Shown here: piece by piece, positions 26,997 through 32,489 of the stretch | Layout: each line of letters begins with the position of its first letter | Numbering within the stretch: the stretch's first letter is position 1 | NCBI GenBank assembly: GCA_035764005.1 | Contig: DASTZZ010000121.1 | Coordinates: 1-38,965 of the forward strand | From: Terriglobales bacterium | GTDB taxonomy: Bacteria > Acidobacteriota > Terriglobia > Terriglobales > Acidobacteriaceae | Reading direction: 5' to 3' | DNA length: 38,965 bases | Program-made: the position numbers and the translations under genes | Notes under the pieces: generated by a model | Told to the model about the DNA's origin: nothing | The model's database searches: none | Seen by the model: the letters and a program-made list of their open reading frames with translations, nothing else

Positions 26997-27029
26997 AAGG
27001 GCAGCCGTTTCTGGCTGCCCTTTTGTTTT
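26997..27029. terminator. Bidirectional intrinsic terminator
   Basis: The stem AAGGGCAGCC / GGCTGCCCTT with loop GTTTCT is followed by TTTTGTTTT on the plus strand. It serves the glycine-zipper gene; on the minus strand it is 12 bp after the ftsH stop and is followed by a T-containing CTTCTTTATT, so it probably serves both. Confidence 0.9.
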
Positions 27030-27040
27030 CCTTAGAATGC

Positions 27041-28948
27041 TTAAGCGGGCGACGGATGTCCCGGAGCCAGGCCTGGCTGTCGTGACGGTTCCGGCTTCAG
27101 CACCTGCTGCACGCCACCATCACTGCCGCTGGACGGCATCTTGATTGGCGGAAGGTCTTTGCCTTCGATGATCATTTTGATCTCGTTGGCATCGAGCACC
27201 TCGCGCTCCAGCAAAGCCGCCGACATGCGATGCATGATGTCCTTGTTATTTGAGAGGATATCCACCGCCGACTGATAACCCGCATCGACCAACTGACGAA
27301 CTTGTTTGTCGATCAACTGCGCGGTTTCTTCGCTGAAGTCACGATGCTGATTGATTTCGCGGCCGAGGAAGATCTGCTCTTCCTTCTTGCCGAACGTGAT
27401 CGGCCCGAGAGAACTCATGCCGAACTCGCATACCATGCGGCGAGCGAGATCGGATGCCTGCTCGATGTCGTTACCGGCACCGGTCGTCATTTGACCGAGG
27501 AAGATCTCCTCAGCAACGCGACCGCCCATCATGATGGCCAAGCGCGTCTCGAGATATTCCTTCGTGTAAGTGTGCTTATCGTCGATCGGCAACTGCATGG
27601 TTACGCCCAGCGCCATTCCGCGCGGGATGATCGTGACCTTATGCAGAGGGTCGGCGTGCTCGCGCATGGCTGCCACGAGCGCGTGTCCGGCCTCGTGGTA
27701 AGCCGTGACCTTTTTCTCATGGTCGGAGAGCAGCATCGACTTGCGCTCCGCCCCCATCAGCACTTTGTCCTTCGAGACTTCGAAGTCGTACATATACACC
27801 GCTTTGCGGTTCTGACGAGCGGCGTTCAGTGCGGCCTCGTTGACCATGTTGGCCAGATCAGCTCCGGAGAAACCCGGCGTGCCGCGAGCGAGGATCGAGA
27901 GATCGACATCATCTCCGATGGGAATCTTGCGCGTGTGTACGCGGAGAATCTCTTCACGTCCGCGGACGTCGGGACGCGCGACCACTACGCGACGATCAAA
28001 GCGGCCAGGACGCAGCAGCGCGGGATCAAGCACGTCAGGACGGTTCGTAGCGGCGATGAGGATCACGCCTTCGTTCGATTCGAAGCCGTCCATCTCAACG
28101 AGCAACTGGTTGAGTGTTTGCTCGCGCTCGTCGTGTCCGCCACCTAGACCAGCACCGCGATGGCGTCCGACAGCGTCGATTTCGTCGATGAAAATGATGC
28201 AGGGAGCGTTCTTTTTGCCCTGCTCGAACAGATCGCGTACGCGGCTCGCGCCGACGCCGACGAACATTTCGACGAAATCAGAACCTGAAATCGAGAAGAA
28301 CGGAACGTTGGCTTCACCGGCTACTGCACGGGCAAGCAGAGTCTTTCCCGTTCCGGGAGGTCCGACGAGCAGTACGCCCTTCGGAATGCGTCCTCCGAGC
28401 TTTTGGAACTTCTGCGCCTCGCGCAGGAACTCAATAATCTCGCGCAGCTCTTCTTTGGCTTCGTCCACGCCGGCGACGTCCTTAAACGTGACTTTCTTCT
28501 GCTGCATCGAGAGCAGGCGTGCGCGGCTCTTGCCGAACGAGAGAGCTTTGTTGCCACCGGTCTGCATCTGGCGGATCATCACGAACCAGAGCGCCGCGAA
28601 GAGGATGAGCGGGGAAAGATTCAGCAGGTAAGTCGGCCAGCCATTGCCGGAATTGTCCTTCACGGTGATGTTGACGCCTTTATCGCGAAGGTCCTTGATC
28701 ATGTCCGGATAATTTGCCGGAACCGTGGTCTGGAATCCGCCTTTGCCGCTCTTGTACTTGCCATGAACTTCGGTGCCGATCATCGTCACGTCATTGACGT
28801 CGCCATGGTCCACGTCCTGCATGAACTGCGAGAACGAGACTGGTGTTTCTTTGGCACCGGCGCCACCGGCCTGAACTACCTTCCAGAGCAGTACTCCCGA
28901 AAGCAGAATGACCAGCCAGAACGCCACGGTCTTAACGGTTGAATTCAC
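27041..28948 (-). CDS. ftsH: ATP-dependent zinc metalloprotease FtsH
   Basis: This 635-residue membrane protease has two membrane helices (about 7-26 and 108-127) flanking a periplasmic domain. A AAA+ module follows with Walker A G-P-P-G-T-G-K-T (196-203), Walker B I-I-F-I-D-E-I-D and the second-region-of-homology arginines. The zinc site H-E-A-G-H is at about 418-422. It degrades misfolded membrane proteins and some regulators. The frame is open to a TTG at 28954, but AGGAG is only 2 bp from that codon and 8 bp from the GTG at 28948, so I chose the GTG. It is the last gene of tilS-hpt-ftsH, with a 524-bp gap before it. Confidence 0.97.
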
Positions 28949-29472
28949 TCTCAATGCTCCTAAACCTACCCTCTAGGACTCCGATACGCGGCCGCATGCC
29001 GCCCGAAAAAGTCCCAAATGCGATATCAAAACTACTCATTCGAGCCTTCCAAACGGCCCAAACTGCTGGTCCGATCTTCCCATACACCAGCCGACTCATA
29101 CATCAAAACGGGGGAGATTGGACGCGAATAGTCCTACCCCTCCATTGTGCTTAGATGCCGAAGAAGGGATTTCGACCCCTTACTCGTAACCTAAATTGTA
29201 TATGGTTTCCCGGCCGTAAACCTCATCCAAAGTAATGCCAATTACCAGAGCTTCCAATCCATTAGACACCGTGGTTCGGGCTAAGGTGGGGAACACCGGC
29301 TGTCGGCATTCGGCTGTCGGCGCTCGGCCGACCACCTTTCTTGGTTTTGCTGCGATTGAGCTTTTAGACGGTCTGCCCGCGAGTTTGATTACGGAGTTTT
29401 AAGTCTAATTGGCCCGAACCGCCACCCCATCAGCTGGCCGAAAGCCGAGTGCCGAATGCCGAGTGCCGCTTT
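28949..29472. other. 524-bp region between hpt and ftsH
   Basis: No gene is supported. It holds the inverted repeat at 29297-29468 and, near 29150-29215, a small hairpin that is not a tRNA. The ftsH promoter is probably here on the minus strand, but I found no -35/-10 pair good enough to annotate. Confidence 0.6.
29297..29468. repeat. Inverted repeat, 33-bp arms of GCCGA words
   Basis: Arms 29297-29329 and 29436-29468 match at 27 of 33 positions as inverted copies with a 106-bp loop. The mismatches fall in the variable positions between GCCGA words. The right arm ends 4 bp from the hpt stop codon. Confidence 0.88.
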
Positions 29473-29985
29473 CTATTTTCCCTCGCTCTGAATATGCGGC
29501 AGATTACGTCCAAATTGGGGATTTCCGAGCCCATACCCAACGATATAGGTTTCCTCGACGATGAATCCCATGTAATCGGGCTGGAGGGGGACTCGGCGGG
29601 CGGTCTGCTTGTCGATCAGCGCGGCGAGTTTTACCGAATTAGCACCCCACCCCTGGATGGTACGCATGAGGAATTCGGTGGTCTGTCCAGACTGAATCAC
29701 GCCTTCGACGAACAGAACGTCTTTGCCCTTCACGTCGATCTCAGGGCCATAGTGGATCTGAATTTGGGATGCCGCACCATTCATTGCTTTTCTTTGCGGC
29801 TGTACAAAATGGAGAATCGAGGCGACATTGATGGCGCGAATGAGATCGGCGCAGAACACAAAACCATTGGGCAGGACACAGATCAGCGTGAGGTTCTTCC
29901 CCGAATAGTCCCGGGAAATCTGCTGACCCATTTCTCTTACACGTCGCTGAATCTGCTCGGCGGTGAGCAGGACTTTTTCTGACAT
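29473..29985 (-). CDS. hpt: Hypoxanthine phosphoribosyltransferase-like protein, probably inactive
   Basis: The 170 residues align along the whole length with bacterial Hpt: S-E-K-V-L-L-T-A-E-Q-I at the start, F-C-A-D-L-I-R-A-I, D-K-Q-T-A-R-R, and Y-I-V-G-Y-G-L with R-N-L-P-H-I at the end. Key residues differ. The PRPP loop, normally E-D-I-I-D-S-G, reads E-G-V-I-Q-S-G (94-100). The L-K-G loop reads L-P-N-G (38-41), the S-S-Y-G flexible loop is lost, and G-L-D-Y reads G-L-G-N (152-155). Purine salvage activity is therefore doubtful. The location after tilS and before ftsH is the classical one. The frame also opens from a TTG at 30033 overlapping the tilS stop; the ATG at 29985 fits the family start. 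Confidence 0.88.
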   Translation of the reverse strand: MSEKVLLTAEQIQRRVREMGQQISRDYSGKNLTLICVLPNGFVFCADLIRAINVASILHFVQPQRKAMNGAASQIQIHYGPEIDVKGKDVLFVEGVIQSGQTTEFLMRTIQGWGANSVKLAALIDKQTARRVPLQPDYMGFIVEETYIVGYGLGNPQFGRNLPHIQSEGK

Positions 29986-30029
29986 TCGCGTTGGGTACTG
30001 CTTTGAAGTCTGACCCCGAAGGGCGGCTT

Positions 30030-31478
30030 TCAATCCGTGCTTTCTTCAATCACGATCTGCTGACCATTCGAGGCTAGCAACGCCGGCGCCTCGATGCCAC
30101 GTACCCAGACAATACGCTGGCCGGCAACGACAACCGGCCAAACCCGCTTTTCTTCCGCGCTGAGGTGCAGCGGGTACAGTAACTCCTTTACACGCTTTTC
30201 TGACCTGTGGCGCGCAGCTCGAAAATAATCTCCGGCGCGCCAGTTCCGCACGCGCAGCTTCGAACCCGAAGACAATTCGAAAGCGTGTGCCCGATTATAA
30301 GCTGCCGAGATAACAGAAGCGTTATCTTCCGAGATGCGCGCGCGAATTGTTGCGCCAAGCTCCGGAATCCGGCTCTCACCAGGAACAGATAACGCATATT
30401 CGTAGTCGGTGGTCGCCTCTTTGGATTCTGCGGAGGCTCTGGAGGGGGTGCGCTCGATCCGCAGTTCGCGAAAGAGAAGCCGCGCGTTCCACCCGTCCGC
30501 GATCTGGACTATCTTGCTTTGCGTACCGCGCGTCTGCCGCCGAGAAATCAGATCGAGCATCGCGTGAACGTGCTCAAAGTCGAGACTGCAGCCGATCTGC
30601 TCTGCGGCTGCGCGGAGCAGCCGGCGCTGAACAGCAAGCGGTTGTTGCTCCAAAGCTAGAAGTTCGACTGCGATCGCCCCGGCCGACGTTTGTCTGCGTC
30701 CGCCGCCGCGAGCAGGTTCTCCGGGCTTGCACACGAGCGGTAGAAGGCGTTTTGTCTGCTCTGTCCAATACTCTTCCTCAGCACGAGAAATTTCCGCCAA
30801 GTGCGCCAACGAAGTATCCGCCGCTGGGTTCAACTCATCGCGCAGCACAGGCAGCACGCGCGCACGCATACGGTTGCGAGTGATCGTCAGGTCAGCATTG
30901 GTGACATCTTCACGCCAGGACTGCTGCAGATCGCGCAAATACGCGCGAATCTCCTCGCGGCGAATCCCCAAAACAGGACGCACAATACTGCCCCGCCCAA
31001 GCCGCTGCTCCGGAAAGATGCCGGCCATGCCGCGCGTACCCGCCCCGCGTACGACCTTCATCAGCACCGTCTCAGCCTGGTCATCGACCGTATGGGCAGT
31101 AGCGATTCGTTTGACGTTATTCGACAACAGCGACTCGAAGAATTCATGCCGCAGTTGCCGGGCTGCTGTCTCGATACTGATTTTTTTCTGAGCTGCGTAT
31201 GCCCGGGCATTCCCTCGGTTGACGTGAGACTCCAGCCCGAACCCGCTGGCCAATTCACTGACGAACTTCTCGTCAGCATCCGCATCGGCTCCGCGAATCC
31301 CATGATGAAAATGGGCCACGCTGGGCACGATACCTAGTTCCTCTCGCAGCTCGAGGAGAATACGCAGCAGCCCAACCGAATCTGCCCCGCCGGATACGGC
31401 AACAGCGACTCGGTCCCCCGCACCCATGAGTCCGCGCTCGCGAATATAGCGCGCGACACGTTGGCCTAGTGAGAGCAC
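30030..31478 (-). CDS. tilS: tRNA(Ile)-lysidine synthetase
   Basis: TilS modifies C34 of tRNA-Ile(CAU) to lysidine, using ATP and lysine. The 482-residue protein has the PP-loop V-A-V-S-G-G-A-D-S near the N-terminus, then H-F-H-H-G-I-R-G, A-T-A-H-T-V-D-D-Q-A-E-T and R-G-x-G-T-R-G-M. Substrate-binding and C-terminal domains follow (R-N-W-R-A-G-D-Y-F). The start is uncertain: the frame opens at a TTG at 31544, but the first 15 or so codons are then encoded by an inverted-repeat arm. The GTG at 31478 gives a family-like N-terminus; neither start has a ribosome binding site. Confidence 0.93.
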   Translation of the reverse strand: MLSLGQRVARYIRERGLMGAGDRVAVAVSGGADSVGLLRILLELREELGIVPSVAHFHHGIRGADADADEKFVSELASGFGLESHVNRGNARAYAAQKKISIETAARQLRHEFFESLLSNNVKRIATAHTVDDQAETVLMKVVRGAGTRGMAGIFPEQRLGRGSIVRPVLGIRREEIRAYLRDLQQSWREDVTNADLTITRNRMRARVLPVLRDELNPAADTSLAHLAEISRAEEEYWTEQTKRLLPLVCKPGEPARGGGRRQTSAGAIAVELLALEQQPLAVQRRLLRAAAEQIGCSLDFEHVHAMLDLISRRQTRGTQSKIVQIADGWNARLLFRELRIERTPSRASAESKEATTDYEYALSVPGESRIPELGATIRARISEDNASVISAAYNRAHAFELSSGSKLRVRNWRAGDYFRAARHRSEKRVKELLYPLHLSAEEKRVWPVVVAGQRIVWVRGIEAPALLASNGQQIVIEESTD

Positions 31479-31503
31479 GAGAACATGATTGCACGGGAAG
31501 GGG

Positions 31504-31644
31504 GCTGCTGGCCGCTGGCTACTGGCTTCCGGCAATCTATCCAAGGACAGCGAGACGCGATATCTGACTACCGCGAGCGAGATAGGGGCGAATGTTTCAG
31601 CAACTCCGCAAGCCAGTTGCCAGGGGCCGATAGCCAGTAGCCGC
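31504..31644. repeat. Imperfect inverted repeat between tilS and ispD
   Basis: Arms around 31504-31534 and 31608-31644 share an exact 11-bp inverted core (GGCTACTGGCT) and imperfect flanks. They are made of CTGGC-type words resembling those at 1930-2021. It lies in the divergent promoter region of tilS and ispD. Confidence 0.75.
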
Positions 31645-31651
31645 TTTGATT

Positions 31652-31657
31652 TATACT
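31652..31657 (+). promoter_or_regulatory. Possible -10 box of ispD (TATACT)
   Basis: TATACT is 9 bp before the ispD ATG and 7 bp after the inverted repeat. The -35 position falls in the repeat arm and has no consensus. There is no Shine-Dalgarno sequence, so the transcript may have an almost absent leader. Confidence 0.4.
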
Positions 31658-31666
31658 TCGCTTCCC

Positions 31667-32404
31667 ATGAAAGTGGTGGTCATTATTCCGGCTGCGGGAC
31701 TCGGAACGCGCATGGCAGCGCACTCCGGCGCGCGCGCCGGACAGCCCGCCAAGCAGTTCGCCGAAATCGCCGGTAAGCCGATCCTGCTGCACACATTAGA
31801 AAAGTTTTCTGAGGTGCCGGAGGTCACGGATATCTACATCGCCGTTCGCGAGAGTGAGAGTGGACGTGTGCGGGACTTCCTGGCTGGACAAAAGCTTCGT
31901 CCCAAGATGCATGTAGTGATCGGGGGCGATCACCGTCAGCAATCGGTAGCGAATGCTTTGGCCGAATTTCGCGCGAATGAGGACGACATTGTTCTAGTGC
32001 ACGATGCGGTGCGTCCGTTTGTAGAAGGTGAGGTTATTCGCAATGTGATCGAGACCGCCGCAGCTCAAGGCGCCGCCATTGCGGGCCTCCCTGCCGTCGA
32101 TACCATCAAGCAAGTCGAGCGCACCGCGAGCGGGGCAATCATTACGTCCACGGTACCGCGGGAACGAGTTGTAATGGCGCAGACCCCGCAGGGATTCCGC
32201 TACGCGGTGATCAAATGCGCTTTCGATGAAGCCGCTCAGGATGGATTTGTCGGTACCGACGAGGCCTCTCTGGTAGAACGATCGGGACATCAAGTGGCAG
32301 TGGTGATGGGCTCTGCGCGAAATATCAAAATCACAACACCCTCGGACCTCGAACTCGCAGAGTTCCTTTTTCACCACGGAGATACGAAGAAAGCTATCGG
32401 GTGA
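31667..32404 (+). CDS. ispD: 2-C-methyl-D-erythritol 4-phosphate cytidylyltransferase
   Basis: This 245-residue enzyme of the MEP isoprenoid pathway transfers CMP from CTP to MEP. The nucleotide-binding start I-I-P-A-A-G-L-G-T-R-M is followed by K-Q-F, V-I-G-G-D-H-R-Q-Q-S-V, V-H-D-A-V-R-P-F, Q-T-P-Q-G-F-R and G-T-D-E-A-S. I chose the ATG at 31667; the upstream ATG at 31646 would add seven residues encoded next to the repeat. The last codons and the stop lie inside the arm of the next inverted repeat, so the C-terminus A-I-G is repeat-derived. ispF follows 118 bp downstream. Confidence 0.95.
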   Translation: MKVVVIIPAAGLGTRMAAHSGARAGQPAKQFAEIAGKPILLHTLEKFSEVPEVTDIYIAVRESESGRVRDFLAGQKLRPKMHVVIGGDHRQQSVANALAEFRANEDDIVLVHDAVRPFVEGEVIRNVIETAAAQGAAIAGLPAVDTIKQVERTASGAIITSTVPRERVVMAQTPQGFRYAVIKCAFDEAAQDGFVGTDEASLVERSGHQVAVVMGSARNIKITTPSDLELAEFLFHHGDTKKAIG

Positions 32405-32489
32405 TCGGGCCATCGGGTCATCGGGTGATCTGCACGCATGGCCATTCGGTTTTACTTCACCCGATGACCCGATCATCCGATCGCCCGAT
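32396..32489. repeat. Inverted repeat of tandem 8-bp words between ispD and ispF
   Basis: Arms 32396-32428 and 32457-32489 match at 29 of 33 positions with a 28-bp loop. Each arm holds four tandem 8-mers of the type ATCGGGTG. It contains the ispD stop codon, and the right arm ends 3 bp before a -10-like box for ispF. Confidence 0.93.

Follow-up and report, generated by a model that had tools for sequence, protein, structure and literature searches.

In Bacillus subtilis, TilS and HprT have been reported to form a complex that activates ftsH and is bound at two inverted repeats of its promoter (Lin 2014, via PMC8152036). HprT is in that system a working enzyme that moonlights. Phosphoribosyltransferase (PRT) folds with altered functions have been described elsewhere. 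The regulator PurR of Bacillus is described as using a PRT-fold pocket without enzymatic activity for regulation, next to an N-terminal winged-helix domain (PMC8789054). Human PRTFDC1, an HPRT homologue, has been suggested to lack typical catalytic activity (PMC12737788); another account leaves the presence of activity open (PMC3144895). In T. brucei, the adenine PRT is duplicated, with one isoform alone reported as kinetically active (PMC8836349).

The window analyzed here, meaning the whole stretch of 38,965 nucleotides from a Terriglobales bacterium (contig DASTZZ010000121.1), carries the same three genes in the same order as B. subtilis, namely tilS-hpt-ftsH. The likeness extends to a TilS-Hpt fusion in two species and, in one subclade with Sulfotelmatobacter-type genomes, to a palindrome upstream of the ftsH promoter that recalls the two inverted repeats reported in B. 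subtilis (PMC8152036). The two systems differ in that the enzyme part appears to be gone here. As in PurR, a PRT pocket may have turned purely regulatory; unlike PurR, the protein is a PRT domain alone, which places it outside that family. PRTFDC1 shares the suggested loss of catalysis but is a vertebrate paralogue with no operon context, and the T. brucei pair shares the duplication but concerns an adenine PRT in a eukaryote. Searches of the open-licence PMC literature found no description of a catalytically inactive bacterial Hpt within a tilS-hpt-ftsH operon.

The Hpt-Like Gene and Its Neighbours

The reading frame of the hpt-like gene, whose product is referred to as P0001, is uninterrupted. 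It begins 44 nt past the stop codon of tilS, to which it is unfused in this genome, and is separated from ftsH by approximately 520 nt (Table 1). The PRT domain profile of Pfam (PF00156) recognizes P0001 with 69.8 bits against a cut-off of 26.3, and this single domain fills the 170 amino acids, with no DNA-binding domain found by Pfam. The NCBIfam HGPRTase profile TIGR01203 matches P0001 over its full length, which bears out the similarity to HprT noted in an earlier sequence-only reading, though the score of 131.4 bits lies below the equivalog cut-off of 150. A few altered copies in relatives reach this cut-off, e.g., the copy of G135 with 158.7 bits. In fold, length and operon position P0001 resembles the bacterial HGPRTs (hpt/hprT), but it falls outside TIGR01203 both by score and by the absence of the HGPRT motifs E-D-x-x-D-[ST]-G, L-K-G and G-L-D, which are also present in the canonical copies read here.

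The solved structures closest to P0001 by sequence are HGPRTs (best 3acb, E 7e-33). Human PRTFDC1 (2jbh), in which the catalytic Asp is replaced, matches at E 4e-21. A structure model built from 52 sequences (mean pLDDT 75.6, pTM 0.73, with residues 152-170 poor) led Foldseek to the HGPRT fold; the best match was again 3acb (E 1.9e-14), and the best 50 matches listed were all HGPRTs. The sequence profile and the fold together assign P0001 to PRT fold type I. An identity as PyrR was rejected, with a best NCBIfam score of 38.7 against a cut-off of 138 and a separate PyrR on contig C75, and the NCBIfam scores also ruled out another PRT.

Table 1. Positions of the genes, active-site elements and conserved blocks in the window.
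Feature	Position	Strand	Basis
hpt-like gene (P0001), 170 aa, with an HGPRT fold but no catalytic or metal residues	29473..29985	-	translation, profiles, motif comparison
tilS, tRNA(Ile) lysidine synthetase, upstream neighbour of P0001	30030..31544	-	open frames and profile matches
ftsH, membrane AAA protease, downstream neighbour of P0001	27041..28954	-	open frames and profile matches
Loop I, residues 38-41, L-P-N-G (canonical L-K-G)	29863..29874	-	motif alignment; Asn40 in 81/81 rows
Loop II region (canonical S-S-Y loop), residues 62-74, without S-S-Y	29764..29802	-	alignment
PRPP loop (loop III), residues 94-102, E-G-V-I-Q-S-G-Q-T (canonical E-D-I-I-D-S-G-x-T)	29680..29706	-	alignment
Lys126, retained (relatives have Lys or Arg); corresponds to Lys131 of B. 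anthracis Hpt-1, which contacts the base	29608..29610	-	
Gly154, replacing the Asp of G-L-D	29524..29526	-	alignment
Arg160, corresponding to Arg165 of B. anthracis Hpt-1, kept	29506..29508	-	
hpt-ftsH gap with genus-conserved blocks	28955..29472	-	six genomes aligned
Conserved block GGTGTCTAAT	near 29261-29270	-	six genomes of the genus aligned
Conserved block TATACAATTT	near 29190-29206	-	six genomes of the genus aligned
Conserved block GGCATCTAA	near 29151-29159	-	six genomes of the genus aligned

Active-Site Residues

When P0001 is aligned with a canonical copy, L-K-G becomes L-P-N-G, the S-S-Y-G loop aligns with Q-R-K-A, E-D-I-L-D-T-G becomes E-G-V-I-Q-S-G and G-L-D becomes G-L-G. These are the four changes on which the sequence-only reading was built, and they are real: as the same substitutions recur in dozens of separate assemblies of relatives, misassembly, frameshift and sequencing error were rejected as their source. 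P0001 lacks the Lys-Gly of loop I, the Asp of the PRPP loop, the catalytic and metal Asp residues and the SSY loop, and it retains Glu94, Ser99-Gly100-x-Thr102, Lys126 and Arg160. The Asp of the G-L-D motif has a metal role in HGPRTs.

In B. anthracis Hpt-1, the reported contacts of ppGpp, mostly shared by PRPP, include Glu99, Asp100, the backbone of Asp103-Thr107, Lys131 and Arg165 (PMC6783271). P0001 keeps the Glu, the S-G-x-T part, the Lys and the Arg of this set, whereas the equivalents of Asp100 and Asp103 are gone. Because of this pattern, the 5′-phosphate site may survive while the metal-dependent chemistry should be lost. The loop that binds PRPP and ppGpp had previously been called lost. 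Two of its acids are indeed replaced, but with the 5′-phosphate loop, the Lys and the Arg remaining, it is better described as altered.

A search of the source genome (5.1 Mb, 97.5% complete) for a second, canonical hpt located one on contig C68, with 209.7 bits for TIGR01203. The genome also encodes Apt, PyrR, PyrE, PurF, PrsA and a ComF-like PRT.

Distribution within Terriglobia

Copies of the P0001 type are present in 24 of 37 genomes of the same family, the source genome included. The relatives share 47-77% identity with P0001, and the copies in other families of the class 36-43%. The gene lies between tilS and ftsH in 28 of 30 such loci, with one further copy adjoining ftsH only and one adjoining neither. 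The copy that is away from tilS is that of locus L029 (G033), and the one away from both tilS and ftsH is that of locus L019 (G026).

A scan of GTDB genomes found 150 relatives of P0001, of which the best 80 were kept as named loci. By title, these 80 are all Acidobacteriota MAGs (Sulfotelmatobacter, Acidobacteriaceae, other Terriglobia and one Korobacter). The order tilS-hpt-ftsH is found in 69 of them; the remaining 11 miss one neighbour in the stretch read, some, but not all, being at contig ends. Among the best 80 of 150 together with P0001, there is no variation at Asn40, Glu94, Gly95, Ser99, Gly100, Thr102 and Arg160. At position 98, 79 sequences have His and two have Gln; at position 154, 78 have Gly, two have Ser and one has Ala.

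Every P0001-type copy read has other residues in place of the Lys of loop I and the Asp of the PRPP loop. Within the class, none of the 64 copies linked to tilS or ftsH in whole-genome loci, a count separate from the named loci, keeps the PRPP-loop Asp or an acid at position 95, and no canonical hpt was found in the operon among these 64 copies. The replacement of catalytic residues is class-wide, and the observation of the sequence-only reading, which is upheld, reaches much further than first described. The nine Hpt copies read from family f6 are unlinked and canonical. Three order relatives of family f2 (G037, G039 and G040) gave no match to P0001 at E <= 0.001 though 97-98% complete, so members of this order may be able to do without Hpt itself.

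Linked and Unlinked Copies across the Phylum

In whole-genome loci across the phylum, all four acids are present in 105 of 111 unlinked copies as opposed to 16 of 96 linked ones. The six unlinked copies without all four are those of L019, L183, L186, L190, L200 and L303. In state A, the sole Hpt is in the operon with its acids intact; this is seen in nine families (f17, f18, f21, f25, f35, f39, f44, f51 and f61). In state B, a canonical Hpt is unlinked and tilS and ftsH are adjacent without hpt, as in families f27, f28, f34, f36, f37, f41, f42, f46, f57, f59 and f60 and in the handpicked Acidobacteriaceae L201-L204, L206-L208 and L211-L213. State C combines an unlinked canonical copy with an altered operon copy. 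It is found in f1, f3, f5, f7, f9, f10 and f11 of the class, and in f20, f29, f30, f38, f47, f48, f53, f56 and f58 of other classes; f8 also belongs here, the operon copy of its sole canonical-bearing genome (G100) not being among those read.

Several cases run counter to a clean division into these states. Family f24 has a single, mildly altered linked copy and f32 has one acid changed, while the linked copy of f52 keeps its acids alongside a canonical one. In f26 there are two acid-bearing copies, each adjoining a tilS-like gene. An altered Hpt lies away from tilS and ftsH in f45 (L183, L186), with none found between those two genes. Two Hpt copies are both beside ftsH in G445 (L196, L333) and both beside a tilS-like gene in G438 (L195, L407).

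The linked copies of Terriglobia and of several other lineages have lost the PRPP-loop acid pair, and most such lineages also carry the unlinked enzyme. In Terriglobia the Lys of loop I, the catalytic and metal Asp residues and the SSY loop are usually missing as well. Where the linked copy is the sole Hpt, it is usually intact. Both states are known in 61 genomes: 40 have an altered linked copy and a canonical one, 8 an altered copy without, 12 an intact copy without and 1 an intact copy with (Fisher p 8e-7). An unlinked canonical Hpt is therefore present in 40 of the 48 genomes with an altered linked copy and absent from 12 of the 13 with an intact one. On the FtsH tree the altered or intact state changes only 3 times, giving 1-3 independent contrasts, and for this reason the association is not independent evidence. 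Second copies were first inferred from search matches and then read, and 15 of 16 proved canonical and unlinked; the 16th (G438, outside the 61) is canonical but adjoins tilS.

No other HGPRT at E <= 1e-20 accompanies the altered operon copy in 14 of 30 handpicked genomes. Seven of these 14 are at least 90% complete and their operon copies were all read; of the other 7, four operon copies are unread. The same holds for G432 and G442, with an altered operon copy and no second HGPRT. Because of the seven more complete genomes, the altered copy may possibly have a residual enzyme role. The tilS-linked gene is itself dispensable, since relatives keep tilS and ftsH without it: of 13 handpicked Acidobacteriaceae in which tilS was matched, 10 have it next to ftsH with no hpt, the other 3 having no ftsH in the stretch.

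In a tree built without the active-site columns, the canonical unlinked copies fall into a single group (SH-aLRT 99) that includes the f24 copy, and the other linked copies, intact and altered, lie outside it. With all columns, one group (81) unites the f45 copies with linked copies from Terriglobia and several further families, and a second group (98) consists of the linked copies from f29, f38, f47, f53 and f58. The deep branches are poorly supported, and the number of catalytic-residue losses is accordingly uncertain.

TilS-Hpt Fusion

In G357, of genus g62 in the same family, a single frame of 704 amino acids (L131:1909-4020) contains TilS (residues 26-495) and an altered Hpt (529-690), and is followed by ftsH. 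A search of 80 relatives of this genome found a second fusion in G536 of the same genus (L414:1345-3594), with 750 amino acids, no stop and ftsH again following, which is 66% identical to the first over residues 10-697. Its presence in two species makes a sequencing error unlikely. The linkers are 32-33 amino acids long with partly conserved letters, and ATG is absent from both, other possible start codons being present. The fused Hpt motifs are altered as well (V-L-E-N-G, [DE]-G-I-V-S-S-G and G-F-G-L-G). The other two species of the genus have separate overlapping genes (G537) and no hpt between tilS and ftsH (G538). The fusion is the best evidence here that TilS and the altered Hpt would work together.

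Selective Constraint

In close pairs (0.05 < dS < 0.7) the altered Hpt has a median dN/dS of 0.072 (43 pairs), compared with 0.218 for TilS (19) and 0.044 for FtsH (12). The 17 pocket positions, which were handpicked, have a median entropy of 0.14 against 0.53 for the rest (Mann-Whitney p 0.0027). Among the re-specified positions, Asn40 and Gly95 are invariant, but 39, 98 and 154, near the 34th-42nd entropy percentile, do not stand out. These values point to strong purifying selection on the altered copy, whose pocket is conserved and re-specified. Decay of the altered Hpt was rejected by its dN/dS.

The Region Upstream of ftsH

The gap between hpt and ftsH carries conserved blocks (Table 1) and is probably the ftsH promoter region. 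The three tabulated blocks perhaps mark several promoters, one of which resembles an ECF-type -10 element. The palindrome TGACTTAAGTCA is absent from the genus of the source genome, which has these other blocks instead. In 51 Sulfotelmatobacter-type gaps of 130-195 nt, TGACTTAAGTCA or a near-match is conserved, and it is followed on the 3′ side by a T-rich block, a TAGAAT-like hexamer, the blocks ATCCAAA and GGCATCTAAT, and the start of ftsH. It occurs with at least 10 of 12 identities in 54 of 76 named loci versus 11 of 400 random windows, the latter coming from the same loci and possibly including the palindrome site itself. The palindrome lies upstream of the -10-like hexamer, its centre being 42 nt away in 45/60 and 41-43 nt away in 53/60. 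Of 49 loci, 33 have the palindrome across the stop codon of hpt, which makes it partly coding in one lineage, and in the other 16 it starts at or after the stop. The exact 12-mer is present once each in G014, G027, G286 and G337, just after hpt, and is absent from the other 8 of 12 genomes. None of 26 tilS-ftsH loci without hpt, from other lineages than the palindrome bearers, has TGACnnnnGTCA in the 700 nt before ftsH.

The pattern fits what a local regulator with few targets would leave. Use of the palindrome by a global factor was considered and rejected, as TGACTTNNGTCA has 110 matches in 12 genomes against 72 for a control pattern, a modest excess; a few further TGACTTNNGTCA sites beyond ftsH are possible. 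In the source genome, the two-element pattern ATCCAAA..GCATCTAA had no match as a regulon. A structured RNA in the gap was likewise rejected, with no Rfam match in 27000-32000 and no consensus fold from RNAalifold for the 51 gaps.

Proposed Function of the Altered Copy

It is proposed that the gene encodes an operon-bound HGPRT paralogue that has given up catalysis and acts as a dedicated, ligand-sensing partner of TilS in the control of ftsH, to which we assign a probability of about 0.56. The gene would descend from the hpt of an old tilS-hpt-ftsH operon, and the unlinked canonical lineage would have taken over salvage and freed the operon copy. The altered copy would then no longer make IMP or GMP, but would still bind a phosphorylated ligand through its S-G-x-T loop, Lys and Arg. 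It would survive through the non-catalytic half of the role of HprT in B. subtilis, by acting with TilS on ftsH; such control is the best-supported guess for its job. The sequence-only reading had called this Hpt a pseudoenzyme and a possible dedicated regulator. The class-wide replacement of catalytic residues, the second canonical copy and the purifying selection argue strongly for the former at the level of sequence, loss of activity being what we infer from them. As to the latter, the fixed synteny, the fusion in two species and the palindrome of one subclade speak in its favour, and the lack of the palindrome in the genus of the window and the loss of the gene in relatives speak against it.

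A more specific version is tentative and has clearly less than an even chance. Here a moonlighting enzyme would have been split in two across the phylum, with catalysis in the free Hpt and the operon copy as a ligand-gated TilS partner controlling the ftsH promoter alone. Nucleotide or alarmone state and tRNA modification would thereby be linked to membrane proteolysis, in one genus through a single polypeptide, and in Sulfotelmatobacter-type genomes the TGACTTAAGTCA palindrome, located where hpt ends with its stop codon, would serve as the operator.

The altered Hpt might instead work at the protein level only, with no contact to DNA, by stabilizing TilS or sensing a ligand for it during tRNA lysidine synthesis, or by partnering FtsH in this way. 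The fusion, the conserved synteny and the strong constraint on the altered Hpt would suit such a role, as would the TilS-HprT complex reported in B. subtilis (PMC8152036). The palindrome near the ftsH promoter in one subclade, itself a putative site, suggests transcriptional control there. We regard a purely protein-level role as unlikely, at a little over one chance in five. A diverged phosphoribosyltransferase or related nucleotide enzyme that uses a different substrate or coordinates metal differently is improbable too. It would account for the conserved pocket with new invariant residues, the kept 5′-phosphate loop, Lys and Arg, and the seven fairly complete genomes in which no canonical HGPRT was found beside the altered copy. 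A single catalytic-Asp mutation need not abolish HPRT activity, and the Foldseek list includes solved structures in which an invariant Asp is mutated to Ala or Glu. In P0001, however, loop I, the PRPP acid and the metal Asp are replaced together, the score falls below the HGPRT equivalog cut-off, and the PRPP-loop Asp is kept in 0/64 linked copies of the class.

HPRTs assemble as dimers or tetramers (PMC6783271), and the altered copy could form mixed oligomers with the canonical Hpt and tune purine salvage, as its co-occurrence with the canonical enzyme in 40 of 48 genomes would allow. This is very improbable: the altered copy persists where fairly complete genomes have no canonical Hpt, and in nearly all loci read it is tied to tilS and ftsH and not to the canonical gene. 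The lost catalytic residues and the absence of the gene from some relatives could also suggest a decaying pseudogene, an explanation that is scarcely credible given the dN/dS, the new invariant residues and a single in-frame stop (in the relative G240) among the matches listed.

Under the preferred reading of a regulatory TilS partner, the side job of a purine-salvage enzyme became its sole job in many Acidobacteriota, as suggested by the loss of catalytic residues under strong selection and by the fusion to TilS in two species. The genomes separate the roles naturally, with intact operon copies, altered ones beside a second enzyme, fusions and clean losses, and so bear on how general the TilS-HprT control of ftsH is and on its need for HprT catalysis. 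The short palindrome, at a near-fixed distance from the -10-like element of ftsH, provides a concrete DNA target. Annotation calls for caution here, as genes of this kind will probably be labelled hypoxanthine phosphoribosyltransferase.

Tandem Arrays in the Window

Paired short tandem arrays with units of 7-14 nt, inverted relative to each other, are present at 1926-2020, 29297-29468 and 32396-32489. They are predicted to form long hairpins, with energies of about -69, -84 and -66 kcal/mol, respectively, for the stretches folded.
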